A DNA stretch of 37,226 nucleotides from Campylobacteraceae bacterium. GTDB lineage: Bacteria > Campylobacterota > Campylobacteria > Campylobacterales > Sulfurovaceae. Shown piece after piece: positions 16,917-23,428 of this stretch. The stretch is from NCBI GenBank assembly GCA_027036015.1, contig JALVTH010000034.1:1-37226 (forward strand). Reading direction: 5' to 3'. The notes beneath the pieces were generated by a model. The model searched no databases. It saw only the letters and a list, made by a program, of their open reading frames with translations, and was not told the DNA's origin. The translations under genes were made by a program, and so were the position numbers. Position 1 is the stretch's first letter. Every line of letters starts with the position of its first letter.

Positions 16917-16938
16917 CTCCATAAATTCTACATAGAAT
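16917..16938 (+). promoter_or_regulatory. Copper-island promoter box 1 (before the CopA-type oxidase)
   Basis: CTCCATAAA (16917-16925), a 7-nt spacer TTCTACA, then TAGAAT (16933-16938). The same arrangement occurs at three other promoters in the island. The ribosome-binding site AAAGGAG is at 16985-16991. Confidence 0.6.
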
Positions 16939-16995
16939 TTTTTTATACTCCATTATATCTTTTTGGGCATTAAGCCTAAAATATAAAGGAGTTTT

Positions 16996-18660
16996 ATGAA
17001 CAGAAGAAAATTTTTACAAACTACAGCGGCTTTTGGGCTTGTTGCCATTATGCCTGCAAAAGCGATTGCTGGCATTGGAGAACAGATGCCTACAACAATA
17101 CTTAAGGGGCCTGTTTTTGATTTGCATATCAAATATACGCGTGTTAATATAAGTGGTAAAAGCGTTATAGCAAAAACAATTAACGATATGATTCCAGGAC
17201 CAACGCTTTATTGGAAAAAAGGCGAGATTGTTACAATTAAAGTTACAAACCATCTTGATGAGCCAACAAGCCTTCATTGGCATGGAATAATACTGCCATA
17301 TACGATGGATGGAGTTCCTGGAGTAAGCTTTCGTGGAATTATGCCAGGTGAGACTTTTGTTTATCGCTTTAAAATAAAACAAACAGGGACTTATTGGTAT
17401 CACTCACACACTGGCTTTCAAGAGCAAAATGCTTTGCATGGCTCAATTGTTATTGATGATGGAATCAAAGTTGACAGAGATTATGTTGTTGCGCTTTATG
17501 ACTGGAGCGATGAAGAGCCAGAAACTATTTATCGCCATTTAAAAGTGCAAAGTGATTATTACAATTACCACAAACGAACGGTTTTTGATTTTGCAAAAGA
17601 GGCAAAAAAACATGGATTTTTAGAGGCAATGAAGCGTCGAAGTATGTGGAATAAGATGCGAATGGACAGCCGAGACCTCTCTGATGTTACAGCTGCAACT
17701 TATACCTATTGTATTAATGATTTGCAAAAACACTTTTTTGCCAAAAAAGGTGAGAAGGTAAGACTTCGATTTATCAATCAATCGGCAATGACCTATTTTG
17801 ATTTTAGAATACCAGGCCATAAAATGAAGGTGATTGCGGCTGATGGGTATCCTATTAAGCCAGTTTATGTGGATGATATTAGAATTGCAGTGGCTGAGAG
17901 TTATGATGTGATTGTAAAAATAAAAGAAGATACCATTATCTATGCTGAGGATATGGGGCGAAGCGGCAAAGTTTTTGCAAAATTGGGACCAAATAAAAAT
18001 GCTCCGCTAAAGCTGCCAGAGCCATATCCTTATGAGGAACTTACAATGGCTGATATGGGGATGAGTATGAATATGAAAAAGATGGGTAAAATGAAGATGA
18101 ACAATACAATGCATATGACAAAAGAGATGATGCCCCATTCAAAAAGAAAAATTCCAATAACACCAATACCCAAAAAAGAGGGGATAGCTTGGACTATGCA
18201 TGCAAAAAATCCTAAGTATCGCTTAAATGATAGAGGCGTTGGGTTAAGAAGCGTAAAAAGAAAGGTTTTAACTTATGCAAATATGCATACGCCGCATATT
18301 CAAAATCGCTATCCAGACAGAGAAATTATTTTGCATCTAACAGGCAATATGGAGCGATATATCTGGGCGATAAACGGTATTCCATATGAAGAGTCAAAAC
18401 CGCTTGAGTTTAGGTATGGAGAGAGGCTTAGAGTTACATTTATAAACGATACAATGATGAATCACCCGATGCATTTGCATGGAATGTGGAGTGATGTAGA
18501 AGTAGGAGATAAAATTTTGCGAAAGCACACCGTTAATGTGCAACCAGGCAGTAAAGTAAGTGTGCGTATTAATGTTGATGCCAAAGGAAAGTGGGTCTAT
18601 CATTGTCATTTGCTCTATCATATGGGCGGAATGTTTAGAGAAGTAAAGGTGTTATCATGA
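16996..18660 (+). CDS. copA: CopA/PcoA-type multicopper oxidase, Tat-exported
   Basis: This is a periplasmic copper-resistance oxidase of 554 aa. The twin-arginine signal is MNRRKFLQTTAAFG. Copper sites: HWHG (LHWHGIILPYTMDGVPG), HSH (YWYHSHTGFQ), HPMHLHG, and HCHLLYH with a following Met (GGMFREV) at the C-terminus, covering type 1 and trinuclear ligands. A Met-rich stretch between domains 2 and 3 (MADMGMSMNMKKMGKMKM) is typical of PcoA/CopA and probably binds Cu(I). It is overlapped by the CopB-type gene by 4 nt. This is the copper-resistance CopA, not the P-type ATPase of the same name. Confidence 0.93.
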   Translation: MNRRKFLQTTAAFGLVAIMPAKAIAGIGEQMPTTILKGPVFDLHIKYTRVNISGKSVIAKTINDMIPGPTLYWKKGEIVTIKVTNHLDEPTSLHWHGIILPYTMDGVPGVSFRGIMPGETFVYRFKIKQTGTYWYHSHTGFQEQNALHGSIVIDDGIKVDRDYVVALYDWSDEEPETIYRHLKVQSDYYNYHKRTVFDFAKEAKKHGFLEAMKRRSMWNKMRMDSRDLSDVTAATYTYCINDLQKHFFAKKGEKVRLRFINQSAMTYFDFRIPGHKMKVIAADGYPIKPVYVDDIRIAVAESYDVIVKIKEDTIIYAEDMGRSGKVFAKLGPNKNAPLKLPEPYPYEELTMADMGMSMNMKKMGKMKMNNTMHMTKEMMPHSKRKIPITPIPKKEGIAWTMHAKNPKYRLNDRGVGLRSVKRKVLTYANMHTPHIQNRYPDREIILHLTGNMERYIWAINGIPYEESKPLEFRYGERLRVTFINDTMMNHPMHLHGMWSDVEVGDKILRKHTVNVQPGSKVSVRINVDAKGKWVYHCHLLYHMGGMFREVKVLS

Positions 18661-19301
18661 AAAAAATAGTATTGTTTGTTATTACAAGTGCAATGTTGTT
18701 TGGTGGAATGGGAGATATTTTACGTTCGCAAATAATGTTTGAAAATTTAGAAATACAAAAAGATAAAACGATAGCTTGGGATATGAGTGCTTATATTGGA
18801 TATGACAAAAATAAAATCTATTTCTTTAGTGAAGGAGAAAATAGTTCATATCAATATGAGTTGGTTTATTCAAGAGCTATTAGCCCTTTTTGGGATATAC
18901 AAGCTGGTATTGAGGTAATACATGAGCAAAAAAGCAAACTATTTGGAGAAATTGCTCTTTATGGTGTTGCACCTTATTGGATAGAAACAAAAGCAAAGCT
19001 CTTTTTTGGAGAAGGGGGAGTTGGTGTTGATTTGGACTTTTCATATGAATTGCTTTTTAGTCAAAAATTGATTTTAGAAAGTTCTTTAGCAAGCAGGTGG
19101 GCAAGCAAAAACTATCCTTTGCTTAATGTTGCAAAAGGATTAAACTATATTGAGGCAGGGTTGCGTCTTCGTTATGAAATTAAAAGAGAGTTTGCACCAT
19201 ATATTGGGATAAACTTTAGAAGAAATTTTGCTAATCTAAGAAAAATGGAAGGGGTTAAAGAGGAAACTTCTTTAGTGGCAGGAGTTCGTTTTTGGTTTTA
19301 G
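18657..19301 (+). CDS. copB: CopB/PcoB-type outer-membrane copper-resistance protein
   Basis: This protein is 214 aa with a signal peptide (MKKIVLFVITSAMLFGG). The body matches the CopB family: WDMSAYIGYDKNKIYFFSEGE, GVAPYWIETKAKLFFGEGGVG, DFSYELLFSQKLIL and GLRLRYEIKREFAPYIGI, ending in GVRFWF with the terminal Phe of outer-membrane barrels. It is shorter than proteobacterial PcoB because the N-terminal Met/His-rich region is missing. Its start overlaps the copA stop (ATGA), so the two are coupled, as in known cop/pco operons. Confidence 0.9.
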   Translation: MKKIVLFVITSAMLFGGMGDILRSQIMFENLEIQKDKTIAWDMSAYIGYDKNKIYFFSEGENSSYQYELVYSRAISPFWDIQAGIEVIHEQKSKLFGEIALYGVAPYWIETKAKLFFGEGGVGVDLDFSYELLFSQKLILESSLASRWASKNYPLLNVAKGLNYIEAGLRLRYEIKREFAPYIGINFRRNFANLRKMEGVKEETSLVAGVRFWF

Positions 19302-19313
19302 GGTGCACAAATC

Positions 19314-19335
19314 TTCCATAAAATTTTGTTATAAT
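19314..19335 (+). promoter_or_regulatory. Copper-island promoter box 2 (before the HMA chaperone and two-component genes)
   Basis: TTCCATAAA (19314-19322), a 7-nt spacer, then TATAAT (19330-19335). A partial second copy (GTGCACAAA, 6 of 9 matching) lies 11 bp upstream, as would suit a dimeric OmpR-type regulator. Confidence 0.65.
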
Positions 19336-19353
19336 AGGAAAAAAGGAAGTTTT

Positions 19354-19632
19354 ATGAAAAAGTTTAAAGTTTTAAATGTTAAATGTAATGGATGTGCTAC
19401 TACTTTAAAAAGTAAATTAGAACCTTTATTTGGTAAAATTGATGTTGATTTGGAAGTAATGCCAAGAGAAATTATTATTTATCAAGATAATATTGATATA
19501 AATAAATTAAGAGTGGAGCTTAAAAAGTTGGGATATCCAATGGCAGATGAGAAAATGAATCTCTTTGAAGAGGTAGGTAGCAAGGCAAAAAGCTTTGTAT
19601 CTTGCGCAATAGGGAAAGTAAATAGCAAATGA
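19354..19632 (+). CDS. HMA-domain copper chaperone (CopZ-like)
   Basis: This protein is 92 aa from the ATG at 19354, with AAAGGAA upstream. The frame is open further up, but that part spans the promoter box. A heavy-metal-associated domain is visible: VKCNGCATTLKSKL with the CxxC at C11 and C14, and the final LKKLGYPM. About 25 residues beyond the usual domain end in FVSCAIGKVNSK. It probably carries Cu(I) in the cytoplasm. It overlaps the response-regulator gene by 4 nt. Confidence 0.88.
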   Translation: MKKFKVLNVKCNGCATTLKSKLEPLFGKIDVDLEVMPREIIIYQDNIDINKLRVELKKLGYPMADEKMNLFEEVGSKAKSFVSCAIGKVNSK

Positions 19633-20285
19633 AAATCTTGCTTCTTGAAGATGATATGATTTTAAGTGAAGTGATTCAAGAGTATTTAATTGAGTTGGAT
19701 TTTGATGTTGATATAGCATATGAAGGATATGAAGCGCTTGATATGATTTCAAATAAGCGCTATGATTTGCTTATTTTAGATGTTGGGGTTCCAAATTTAA
19801 ATGGTTTTGAGCTTTTAGAGTATCTTAAAGATGTTAATATTAATATTCCAGCAATTTATATCACTTCACTTAATACGGCAAAAGATATAGAAAAAGCCTT
19901 TAATATCGGATGTGATGATTATATTAAAAAGCCTTTTGAATTAAAAGAGTTAGAAGTAAGAATTAATCATTTAAAAAAAAGGCTCAATTTGGGGAGTGAT
20001 CGCTTAAAATTAACTAATAATATTTTGTATGATTTTACGATTAAGGCAATTATTAAAGAGAATAAAGAGTATCATTTAAGCCCAAAAGAGGCGTTAATTT
20101 TAGAATATTTTATAAAAAATCAAAAGCGTTTTATCTCATTGGAAGAATTAAGTAGTAATGTTTGGAGTTTAGAAAACACTCCTACATATGCTACGATTAG
20201 AACCTATATAAAAAATTTGCGAAAACTTCTTGGCAAAGAGCTATTAGTTACACGAAAAGGGGTAGGATATAAGTTTGAAATATAA
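19629..20285 (+). CDS. OmpR-family response regulator (CopR/CusR-like)
   Basis: This protein is 218 aa. In the receiver domain the acidic pair is D8-D9 (LLLEDD), the phospho-acceptor is D51 (LLILDVGVP), and Lys101 lies in KKPFELKEL. The C-terminal winged helix (YHLSPKEALILEYFIKN, TIRTYIKNLRKLLG, TRKGVGYKFEI) is typical of OmpR/PhoB regulators. It sits between the metal chaperone and the kinase gene inside the copper island. It is therefore the best candidate to bind the TTCCATAAA boxes. Specificity for copper is inferred from context. Confidence 0.92.
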   Translation: MKILLLEDDMILSEVIQEYLIELDFDVDIAYEGYEALDMISNKRYDLLILDVGVPNLNGFELLEYLKDVNINIPAIYITSLNTAKDIEKAFNIGCDDYIKKPFELKELEVRINHLKKRLNLGSDRLKLTNNILYDFTIKAIIKENKEYHLSPKEALILEYFIKNQKRFISLEELSSNVWSLENTPTYATIRTYIKNLRKLLGKELLVTRKGVGYKFEI

Positions 20286-21387
20286 AGAGCATACGCTCTT
20301 AAAAAAGTTTGCTTTTTTCTATTTTGGGGTTACTTTTGTTTTACTATCAATTATTTTTATTCTTATTTACTATTTTCAGCTTGATATGCAAAAGAACTTG
20401 GCGCTTGAGAGAATGAAAAATTTTAGTTTTCAAATTGCTTCAAATATTATTCAAGCTCAAATGCAAAATAAAATGCCAAATTGTAAGGCTATCCAAAAAA
20501 GACAATATAAATTTATGTTGCTTGATAAAAAAGGGAAAAAGATTAGAGGCGATACAATTAATAAGAAAGGGCTTATTATTGTAGATAAAAGCCCGCTTGG
20601 ACATATGGGGGTTTGGGCTATAGTTGTTGAAGATACTACTTTTGAAAAAGTGAAACAAAAACTTTTTTATAAAACATTTTTTGCTTTTATTCTTTCATAT
20701 TTGGTAATTGCATTCTTAGGTTATTATTTGATATTGCTTTTATTAAAGCCTATTAAAGAAGCAAGAGAAAGAATTGATAATTTTATAAAAGATACAACGC
20801 ATGAATTAAATACCCCAATTACTGCGCTTTTAATGTGTGCAAATGAAAAAAGTTTGCAAAAGAAGCATAATCTTGAAAGAATAAGATTAAGCGCTAAAAG
20901 AGTAAGTGAACTTTATAAAGATTTAATTTATATTTTTTTAGAAGAGAAAAATAAAAAAATTATTGAAATTATTATGAAAGAGGAAATTTTAGAACAATTA
21001 CAATATTTTGAGCTTTTGGCTGCTAAAAAGAAAATAACAATTACAACTTCTTTAGATGATAGTAAAACAAAAATGGATAAAGAAGATTTTAAACGGCTTA
21101 TTTCAAACCTTTTATCAAATACAATTAAATACAATAAAAGAGGCGGTCAAGTTTTTATTACACTAAAAAAGAGAAAATTAATTATAGAAGATACAGGTAT
21201 TGGGATAAAAAAAGAAGAGCAAGAAAAAATATTTGAAAAGTATCATCGGGCAACTGATGTTGAAGGTGGTTTTGGCATAGGACTTAGTATTGTAAAGCAA
21301 ATTTGCAATGAATATGGAATAAAAATAACAATGCATTCAAAATTGCACAAAGGCACTAAATTTACTCTTGAATTTCCTCCATATTAA
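20275..21387 (+). CDS. Sensor histidine kinase of the copper island
   Basis: This protein is 370 aa and starts with TTG, overlapping the regulator stop by 11 nt. The first membrane helix is at about residues 11-35 and the second at about 133-156. The periplasmic loop of about 95 residues contains MQNKMPNC. The kinase core follows closely: H-box DTTHELNTPITALL, N-box LISNLLSNTIKYNKRGG, G1 EDTGIGI, F-box-like IFEKYHRA, and G2 GGFGIGLSIVKQI. No clear HAMP domain is seen between helix 2 and the H-box. It probably senses periplasmic copper and phosphorylates the adjacent regulator. Confidence 0.9.
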   Translation: MKYKEHTLLKKFAFFYFGVTFVLLSIIFILIYYFQLDMQKNLALERMKNFSFQIASNIIQAQMQNKMPNCKAIQKRQYKFMLLDKKGKKIRGDTINKKGLIIVDKSPLGHMGVWAIVVEDTTFEKVKQKLFYKTFFAFILSYLVIAFLGYYLILLLLKPIKEARERIDNFIKDTTHELNTPITALLMCANEKSLQKKHNLERIRLSAKRVSELYKDLIYIFLEEKNKKIIEIIMKEEILEQLQYFELLAAKKKITITTSLDDSKTKMDKEDFKRLISNLLSNTIKYNKRGGQVFITLKKRKLIIEDTGIGIKKEEQEKIFEKYHRATDVEGGFGIGLSIVKQICNEYGIKITMHSKLHKGTKFTLEFPPY

Positions 21388-21409
21388 TTCCATAAAAAGC
21401 ATTTATAAT
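21388..21409 (+). promoter_or_regulatory. Copper-island promoter box 3 (before the cytochrome c gene)
   Basis: TTCCATAAA (21388-21396), a 7-nt spacer AAGCATT, then TATAAT (21404-21409). CTCCATATT lies 11 bp upstream as a partial direct repeat. The box starts at the base after the kinase stop codon. Confidence 0.65.
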
Positions 21410-21430
21410 TTGTATAAAAAAGGATTTGCT

Positions 21431-21904
21431 ATGAGAAAAAAAATAGCTATTGCATCTTTATTTGTTACTGGGGCAACATTACTTCTTGCACAAGGTATGA
21501 TGGGTAGTGGTATGATGCACAAAGTTCCTATGATGGGTGGTATGGGGTGCCCTATGATGCAAAGTTCAAATCAAAAAGTAAAGCCATTGCAATATACTCC
21601 AATTACTAACTGGAAGGATAAAACCAAGATTGCTCAAGGTAAAAAACTTTTTTTACAAAATTGTGCTATGTGCCATGGCATTAATGCCGAAGGAGGAATG
21701 GGTCCATCACTCAATGGGTCTGGGCATGTTATTCATCATTCTCCAAAAAAGTTATTAACTCAAATTAACAATGGTGGAGGTGGAATGCCAGCATTTGGGA
21801 ATAAATTAAATAAACAAGAGCAAGAGAGCATTGTAATTTATTTGCATTCACTTTGGCCTAAAAATGTGCAAAAAGCATATGATAAAAAATTTCATATAAA
21901 ATAG
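21431..21904 (+). CDS. Met-rich class I cytochrome c, exported
   Basis: This protein is 157 aa from the ATG at 21431 (AAAAAGGA 6 nt upstream). The signal peptide is MRKKIAIASLFVTGATLLLAQ. The first mature residues are Met-rich (MMGSGMMHKVPMMGGMGCPMM), a likely Cu(I)-binding tail with one Cys. Heme c binds at CAMCH (residues 78-82), with the axial Met probably in GGGGMPAFG. It could take electrons from the copper oxidases or from Cu(I), or hand copper to periplasmic partners. That role is inferred from the shared promoter box and the Met tail. Confidence 0.9.
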   Translation: MRKKIAIASLFVTGATLLLAQGMMGSGMMHKVPMMGGMGCPMMQSSNQKVKPLQYTPITNWKDKTKIAQGKKLFLQNCAMCHGINAEGGMGPSLNGSGHVIHHSPKKLLTQINNGGGGMPAFGNKLNKQEQESIVIYLHSLWPKNVQKAYDKKFHIK

Positions 21905-21919
21905 CCCAACAGGGCTATT
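21900..21919. terminator. Hairpin shared by two convergent genes
   Basis: AATAGCCC (21900-21907) pairs with GGGCTATT (21912-21919) around AACA. It covers the stop codon of the cytochrome gene and touches the stop of the convergent CueO-like gene at 21918-21920. The T-run follows on the minus strand (TTTTATAT), so it should work best for the oxidase transcript. Confidence 0.65.
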
Positions 21920-23339
21920 AAACAACTACAAACTGCCCCATCATTCCATTATCTTCATGCTCTAAAAAGTGACAATGGTACATATATGGATTTTGAGCAT
22001 CTTGATAGTCTGTCATTTTGACAATAAGTTTGACTTTATCTCCTCCTGCTAAAAATACTGTATCTTTATAGCCTCTTTCATTTGGAGCTGGGGCTTTGTC
22101 ATTTCGTTCTATTATTTCAAAGTGTGTAGCATGAATATGAAAATTATGATTTATCATCATTTTATTTTCTATTTCCCAAATTTCAACTTGATTAAGAGGA
22201 ATATGTTCGTCAATTCGATTTTTATCCATAGATTTTCCATTAATAGTAAGTCTCATACTACCCATTCTTCCACTCATGTCAAGGGTAAATCTTCTTGTAT
22301 TTTGTGCATTGTTTGGGTCTAAATGAGTTAGAGTTACTAATTGATTTGGCGTTGAGGTTATATTTGTTGCTGTTTTTGTTACTTTAACTTCTAAAAACTT
22401 TTTATTGGAGTTAAAATCTTTAAAAAGTATACTTTTGCCAAAATCATTGCTAAAATCAACTATTATTTCAGCTCTTTCACCTGGAGAGAGTCTTAAGTTT
22501 GTCAATGTAACAGGAGATTCTAAAAAAGCATTATCGGTTGCAATTTGTTTAAAACTTTTGCCATTTTCAAAGCCAAGATTATATACAGATGCATTGGAAC
22601 CATTTAAGATTCGAAATCGGATTTCTTTGTTTTCAACTTCAACAAAAGGTTCAATTGCTCCATTAGTAAGTGGAGTATCTCCGATATATCCTTGCATAAT
22701 TTCGCGTCTTGAAGGAGAGTAGTCTAATTGAGCATTTGTAAATTTTCTATCTTGAAGTACTAATGGAATATCATCAACTCCATAATCTTTTGGGATATTG
22801 AGTGATTTTGAATTACTATCTTCTACAATTATAAGTCCAGCTAAGCCCATATAGACATGTTCTGCTGTTTTTCCCATAATATGAGGGTGATACCAATTGG
22901 TTGAGGCATATTGTTTTACTGTATATCTTGCACTCCACTTTTGTTTTGGCTGAATTATTTGATGCACTCCTCCATCCATTATAGCTGGAACATGCATTCC
23001 GTGTCCATGCATTGTTGTAGCTTCATCCAAATTGTTGGTAAAGTTAATCGATACTTCTTTGCCAACTTCCAATTTGAGCGTTGGCCCAAGATAGCTTTGA
23101 TTATTGAGAGCATAGGTATTGGTTAAGGTGCCATTAAAAAAGCTATGTTTTGCTTTGTTTATCGTTAAATCATAATGAATAACACCATTTTTTTCAACAC
23201 CTTCAAGTAGTGGAGGAATTGGTAACGCATTGTTTTTTAGAGGTTGTGGTTTGGAACTTTTTGTTAAAGCTTCACCACAACCGCTAAATAATAAAACAGC
23301 TCCAGCTGTACTTAAATATAAAAATTCTCTTCTTTTCAT
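21918..23339 (-). CDS. CueO-like multicopper oxidase, Tat signal and possible lipoprotein
   Basis: This protein is 473 aa from the second of two ATGs (23339), because AAGGA lies too close to the first. Twin Arg (MKRREFLYL) is followed by a possible lipobox (LFSGCGE). All copper motifs are present: HGHGMHVP, WYHPHIMGKTAEHVYMGLAG, HNFHIHATHF and YHCHFLEHEDNGMMGQF, close to CueO rather than CopA. It lacks the long Met-rich insert of CueO. It likely oxidises Cu(I) or phenolic substrates in the periplasm. It is convergent with the cytochrome gene and has its own copy of the copper box. Confidence 0.92.
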   Translation of the reverse strand: MKRREFLYLSTAGAVLLFSGCGEALTKSSKPQPLKNNALPIPPLLEGVEKNGVIHYDLTINKAKHSFFNGTLTNTYALNNQSYLGPTLKLEVGKEVSINFTNNLDEATTMHGHGMHVPAIMDGGVHQIIQPKQKWSARYTVKQYASTNWYHPHIMGKTAEHVYMGLAGLIIVEDSNSKSLNIPKDYGVDDIPLVLQDRKFTNAQLDYSPSRREIMQGYIGDTPLTNGAIEPFVEVENKEIRFRILNGSNASVYNLGFENGKSFKQIATDNAFLESPVTLTNLRLSPGERAEIIVDFSNDFGKSILFKDFNSNKKFLEVKVTKTATNITSTPNQLVTLTHLDPNNAQNTRRFTLDMSGRMGSMRLTINGKSMDKNRIDEHIPLNQVEIWEIENKMMINHNFHIHATHFEIIERNDKAPAPNERGYKDTVFLAGGDKVKLIVKMTDYQDAQNPYMYHCHFLEHEDNGMMGQFVVV

Positions 23340-23406
23340 CATTATCCTTTTTCTTTTGATTGTAGCAAAGTGTGTATTACCTCAAAGGTAATGGTATTGT
23401 AAAAAG

Positions 23407-23428
23407 TTTTTATGTAGAATTTATGGAA
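23407..23428 (-). promoter_or_regulatory. Copper-island promoter box 4 (before the CueO-like oxidase)
   Basis: Read on the minus strand: TTCCATAAA (23428-23420), spacer TTCTACA identical to box 1, then TAAAAA (23412-23407) in the -10 place. It lies about 68 nt before the start codon. Confidence 0.6.

Follow-up and report, generated by a model that had tools for sequence, protein, structure and literature searches.

Which sequence element joins the promoters of a copper island, and through which regulator would it act? The question is raised by a 37,226-nucleotide stretch of DNA (hereafter the window) from a Campylobacteraceae bacterium of the family Sulfurovaceae (assembly GCA_027036015.1, contig JALVTH010000034.1, forward strand), in which genes for a copA-type multicopper oxidase with copB, a response regulator with its sensor kinase, a cytochrome c and a CueO-like oxidase lie together. 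The original prediction placed a single box, TTCCATAAA, at a fixed distance of 7 nt before the -10 hexamer of four promoters of this island. In the present study, the common element was found to be an 11-bp direct repeat, and the island is very probably a copper two-component regulon in which the regulator encoded at 19629 works through four such operators as a class II activator. To our knowledge, the copper regulons of free-living Campylobacterota outside Helicobacter have been little described. The analysis yields a precise operator of copper control in these bacteria that is open to test, together with a genome-scanning rule that predicts members of such metal regulons, and it corrects the promoter calls of the window.

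The operator and its four promoters

When the promoters were aligned by the 11-bp repeat rather than by TTCCATAAA, a single frame fitted all four of them, consisting of TNCAYA-N5-TMCATA, then exactly 9 nt, then a good -10 hexamer. In this frame, the promoter of copA (box 1) reads TCCATAAATTC TACATAGAATTTTTT TATACT, that of the HMA-like/regulator/kinase operon (box 2) TGCACAAATCT TCCATAAAATTTTGT TATAAT, that of the cytochrome c gene (box 3) TCCATATTAAT TCCATAAAAAGCATT TATAAT and that of cueO on the minus strand (box 4) TCCATAAATTC TACATAAAAACTTTT TACAAT. The string TCCATAAA is one half-site of the repeat, namely the downstream half in boxes 2 and 3 and the upstream half in boxes 1 and 4. Taken as a whole with its two halves, the operator spans about -38 to -22, which is the position of the -35 element, and no -35 element is present in the four promoters.

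The strings and distances on which the single-box reading was built are literally there, since CTCCATAAA or TTCCATAAA occurs at 16917 (+), 19314 (+), 21388 (+) and 23428 (-) with 7 nt to each hexamer then named. The fixed 7 nt hold for boxes 2 and 3. In boxes 1 and 4, however, the named hexamers TAGAAT and TAAAAA both start within the second half-site, TACATA, and the likely -10s, TATACT and TACAAT, sit 11 bp further downstream, so that the distance from TTCCATAAA is 18 nt and the apparent 7-nt constant is produced by the repeat itself. The weaker copy described 11 bp upstream in boxes 2 and 3 is present, but as the other half of the same repeat and not as a separate site. A single box lying within the -35/-10 spacer would need two poor -10s where well-placed ones are available, and both half-sites are kept in relatives; it was rejected on -10 quality and on the genome-wide specificity reported below, and we consider it highly improbable. 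The case shows that a single half-site of a phased repeat can pass for a box at a fixed distance.

Occurrence in the genome and in the genus

In the window, TNCA-N7-TNCAT-N10-TA[CT]A[AC]T gave 4 matches against 0.007 expected from 300 dinucleotide shuffles, none of which reached 4. The whole genome (1.69 Mb) was then scanned with the reversed pattern as control. The tight form of the repeat gave 4 matches, all of them the window promoters (control, 0), and the looser forms gave 6 each, made up of the same four promoters and 2 places outside the island (controls, 2 and 0). For the single box, the claim that the phasing exceeds chance was borne out within the window, where TCCATAAA-N7-TANNNT occurs 3 times against 0.11 expected, but it fared worse genome-wide: loosened to YTCCATAAA-N7-TANNNW so that box 4 is included, the pattern gave 14 matches against 5 for the control, and the 10 of them outside the island come close to the equal frequency before unrelated genes that had been named as speaking against it. 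Matches of the loose patterns on C1, C9, C41 (between murG and alaS) and C50 (before a ResB/CcsB-like gene) were set aside as chance or weak, with poor -10s or no link to copper.

Orthologues of the regulator, with 62-67% identity, were found in only three others of the 12 genus genomes (G004, G006 and G008), and in all three the repeat stands both before the HMA-like/regulator/kinase operon and before cueO, the cueO copy of G006 carrying one substitution (TCTATA). Across the ten sites (four of the window and six of the relatives), 12 of 32 columns are invariant, the direct half-sites are about 11 bp apart, the distance to the sigma-70 -10 is 9 nt throughout, and an extended TGN -10 is in register in 7. 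A held-out sequence model built from the relatives' sites only placed box 2 first, box 1 second and box 4 third in the whole genome of the window. The reverse model, built from the window sites only, gave the top two ranks in G004 to the two sites of that genome and the top rank in G006 to the operon site. The proposed small copper regulon, with one operator shared by its members, is well supported.

Several observations in the genus stand beside these results. In three species (G000, G004 and G008; window 21378-21394; L037, L039), the stop or last codons of the kinase gene are overlapped by an operator, and the gene behind it is that for cytochrome c in the window and cueO in the relatives; the operator stayed and the downstream gene changed. 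In G003, whose nearest regulator is 47% identical, a near-perfect site, TGCATAATATCTACATAAACAATAGATATACT, lies on the minus strand (L085:1501-1532) directly before a rhodanese-like gene. The copA gene of the window (16996-19301 region) occurs in none of the other genomes of the 12-genome genus set, and its nearest homologues, up to 61% identical, come from a different genus in the family. This points to acquisition of the gene, the operator being of the local TNCATA kind.

Table 1. Genes, operators and -10 hexamers of the copper island (window coordinates; E, expectation value)
Feature	Position	Strand	Details
Operator 1 (copA-copB)	16918..16934	+	TCCATA 16918-16923, TACATA 16929-16934, 11 bp apart
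-10 TATACT of copA promoter	16944..16949	+	9 nt past downstream half-site, as in boxes 2-4; 46 nt before copA ATG
copA-type copper-resistance multicopper oxidase	16996..18660	+	TIGR01480 660 bits, cut-off 479
copB, outer-membrane copper resistance protein B	18657..19301	+	PF05275, E 4e-55
Operator 2 (HMA-like/regulator/kinase operon)	19304..19320	+	TGCACA 19304-19309, TCCATA 19315-19320
-10 TATAAT of operator 2	19330..19335	+	extended, TGT in front
HMA-like small protein	19354..19632	+	CNGC motif; Pfam E 0.07, below cut-off
OmpR/PhoB-type response regulator	19629..20285	+	PF00072 and PF00486; recognition helix TIRTYIKNLR
Sensor histidine kinase	20275..21387	+	PF00512 (HisKA) and PF02518 (HATPase_c)
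Operator 3 (cytochrome c)	21378..21394	+	TCCATA 21378-21383 (in last kinase codons), TCCATA 21389-21394
-10 TATAAT of operator 3	21404..21409	+	
Cytochrome c (class I)	21431..21904	+	PF13442, E 2e-16
CueO-like multicopper oxidase	21918..23342	-	NF008205 402 bits, below equivalog cut-off 525
-10 TACAAT of cueO promoter	23396..23401	-	
Operator 4 (cueO-like)	23411..23427	-	TCCATA 23427-23422, TACATA 23416-23411

The regulator and its predicted mode of action

The gene identities first assigned to the island hold for the copA-type oxidase, CopB, the regulator and kinase and the cytochrome c, whereas the protein called HMA is only HMA-like and the CueO-like oxidase scores below the CueO cut-off (Table 1). 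The regulator consists of a receiver and a winged-helix domain and is encoded with its own kinase. It lies below the cut-offs of the CopR/CusR/SilR/CzcR subfamily (TIGR01387, 106.7 bits against 279), the CusR type (NF007346, 98.5 against 420) and the PhoB family (TIGR02154, 107 against 296), and because of these scores it was not filed with CopR/CusR/SilR or PhoB, though it would work like them. The operator is placed before copA-copB, cueO, the cytochrome c gene and the regulator's own operon, as expected of a copper two-component system.

Activators of the OmpR/PhoB type that bind head to tail classically use a repeat of this kind, with one helical turn between its halves, placed over the -35 position and at an unvarying distance from the -10. 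In Escherichia coli, the pho box bound by PhoB replaces the -35 element, and its CTGTCAT ends about 10 nt before the -10. The pho box contains two 11-nt direct repeats (PMC4415409), as the window operator does for a regulator of the same type; the half-site (CTGTCAT against TNCAYA) and the genes served (phosphate against copper) are different. Within the same phylum, HsrA/HP1043 of Helicobacter pylori recognizes a pair of 6-bp direct repeats separated by 5 bp, which stand just before the -10 in promoters with no -35 (PMC5253667). This repeat likewise measures 11 bp from centre to centre and stands in place of the -35; in contrast to the window, its half-site is TTTAAG and HsrA is an orphan, essential and phosphorylation-independent regulator outside copper control. 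PceP (TCS2) of Sulfurospirillum, another OmpR-type regulator of Campylobacterota, has CTATA repeats with a 6-nt gap and 11-bp phasing over the -35 and has been read as an activator (PMC7755780). It shares the phased repeats overlapping the -35 and differs in that two outer copies 22 bp apart are in use and that it serves tetrachloroethene respiration. According to two reports, the OmpR-type CrdRS system of H. pylori induces copper-resistance genes, and CrdR is described as binding a 21-nt sequence at crdA (PMC9927306, PMC9696931). CrdRS resembles the window system as an OmpR-type two-component system tied to copper resistance; its targets are crdAB-czcAB and not copA or cueO, and the comparison is one of site length and not of site sequence, the 21 nt being a length into which two such repeats would fit. 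The remark that the site is unusually placed for an OmpR-type activator falls away, because the PhoB, HsrA and PceP arrangements are alike: the repeat takes the place of the -35 in ordinary class II geometry.

The present study computed how the repeat is built, how nearly unique it is in the genome, how it is conserved at orthologous promoters and how it is associated with this regulator subfamily. From these sequence relations we infer, on much stronger grounds than before, that the encoded regulator binds the repeats. Under copper stress, the adjacent kinase would phosphorylate the regulator (19629), which would then dimerize head to tail on the two half-sites, along one face of the helix, and recruit RNA polymerase in the manner of PhoB. 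Copper resistance through copA-copB, the cytochrome c and the CueO-like oxidase would be switched on in this way, together with the HMA-like/regulator/kinase operon itself in positive autoregulation. The grounds for inferring binding, activation instead of repression and copper as the signal are the operon context, the autoregulatory placement of the site and co-conservation; phosphorylation is likewise a prediction. The opposite sign of control, in which the regulator sits over the -35 and blocks polymerase until copper releases it, seems unlikely to us. The operator does overlap the core promoter, and the good, often extended -10s could fire without an activator; against this, several of the -10s here have no TGN and no -35, the paired HsrA repeats replace the -35, PceP over the -35 was read as an activator, and copper systems such as CrdRS induce their targets.

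The occurrence of the site is further linked to the recognition helix of the regulator. Loci encoding a helix of the form R-x-[YH]-[IV]-[KR]-x-L-R carried a site in 19 of 40 cases, and those with other helices in 2 of 40 (Fisher p 2e-5, kinship uncorrected). The sites might nevertheless be bound by another OmpR-type regulator of the same helix class, or by both, so that the copper regulon would be shared. A paralogue with 47% identity on contig C23 has the identical helix, TIRTYIKNLR, and G003, whose nearest regulator is at that same distance, has TACATA repeats before cueO. The locus of the paralogue itself is without such a site, though, and the genus sites follow the orthologous regulator and sit in its operon, for which reasons a shared or substitute regulator was judged improbable.

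Several points weigh against activation by the regulator of the island through these repeats. The repeat pattern was drawn up after the four sites were seen, which the held-out tests mitigate; in those tests, the relatives-only model misses box 3, and the model from the window sites ranks the cueO sites of G008 and G006 modestly (E 0.3 and 0.6). The helix count takes no account of kinship, and 21 of the 40 loci with the same helix type, as well as the paralogue locus in the genome of the window, have no site, so that helix identity alone does not predict one. Among the helices compared, no residue could be assigned to the T/C change between half-sites, since the helix core is identical in the TNCATA and TNCACA groups.

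Related loci in Campylobacterota

Beyond the genus, 149 further loci (1.27 Mb) were collected via the regulator or copA, with the window's own genome and the training genomes left out, and searched with a grid of TNCAYA-Nx-TNCAYA-Ny followed by a -10 (x, 2-9; y, 5-14). The grid peaked at N5/N9 with 45 matches and at N5/N10 with 12, against 0-6 in the other cells with x = 5 and 0-2 at any other x. Permuted half-sites averaged 0.9; in two permutations the count rose to 16 and 10, and these seem to come from reading the same repeat out of register. The half-sites are thus again about 11 bp apart, with 9 or 10 nt to the -10, and at 40 of 55 places a start codon follows 20-40 nt after the end of the -10. 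In most relatives, the half-site is TNCACA. Behind the sites lie homologues of copA and cueO, the regulator genes themselves, and genes for an RND pump, an efflux protein of the outer membrane, a metal P-type ATPase with YHS/HMBD domains and proteins of the YtkA-like and DUF302 kinds. Many of the organisms with a name belong to Campylobacterota, among them Sulfurovum, Sulfurimonas, Sulfurospirillum, Poseidonibacter and Malaciobacter. This gene set is biased because the loci were picked via the regulator or copA; the spacing peak is unbiased.

There is perhaps an even chance that an operator class TNCAYA-N5-TNCAYA-N9/10, together with one OmpR-type subfamily with a near-invariant helix, controls copper and metal defence across much of Campylobacterota, with copA, cueO, RND efflux, the metal P-type ATPase, YtkA-like and DUF302 genes as its set, and that the genus of the window uses a T-for-C variant (TNCATA) of the widespread TNCACA. 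No description of the regulon (site sequence, gene set and breadth across the phylum) was found in the literature searched. The layout is of a known kind, yet it ties the cluster of the window to copper genes across its bacterial group.

For DccRS of Campylobacter jejuni, we take the motif to be WTTCAC-N6-TTCACW, whose half-site and 11-bp period would agree with the TNCACA form of the relatives; the Campylobacter loci L155 and L160 gave no match, and no site of the present class was found in them. One isolated candidate site was seen in H. cinaedi (L129). At cueO, copA, RND and YtkA-like genes of genus g8 (L045:3980-, L045:5660-; L047, L242, L247), the distance to the -10 is N10 and not N9, which looks like a shift of the spacing in the whole lineage. 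Genes for YtkA-like (PF13115) and comparable small secreted proteins come up several times immediately after TNCACA repeats (L041, L044, L045, L047, L092-L094, L098, L141), which suggests that these proteins take part in handling copper or metals. A DUF302 protein near copA repeatedly has a TGCACA repeat in front of it (L221, L220, L222, L223, L226, L228, L233). At L120, three promoters with TTCAYA-type repeats (2488-, 5914- and 6588-) stand within about 4 kb, before small secreted proteins and a ferritin-like gene.

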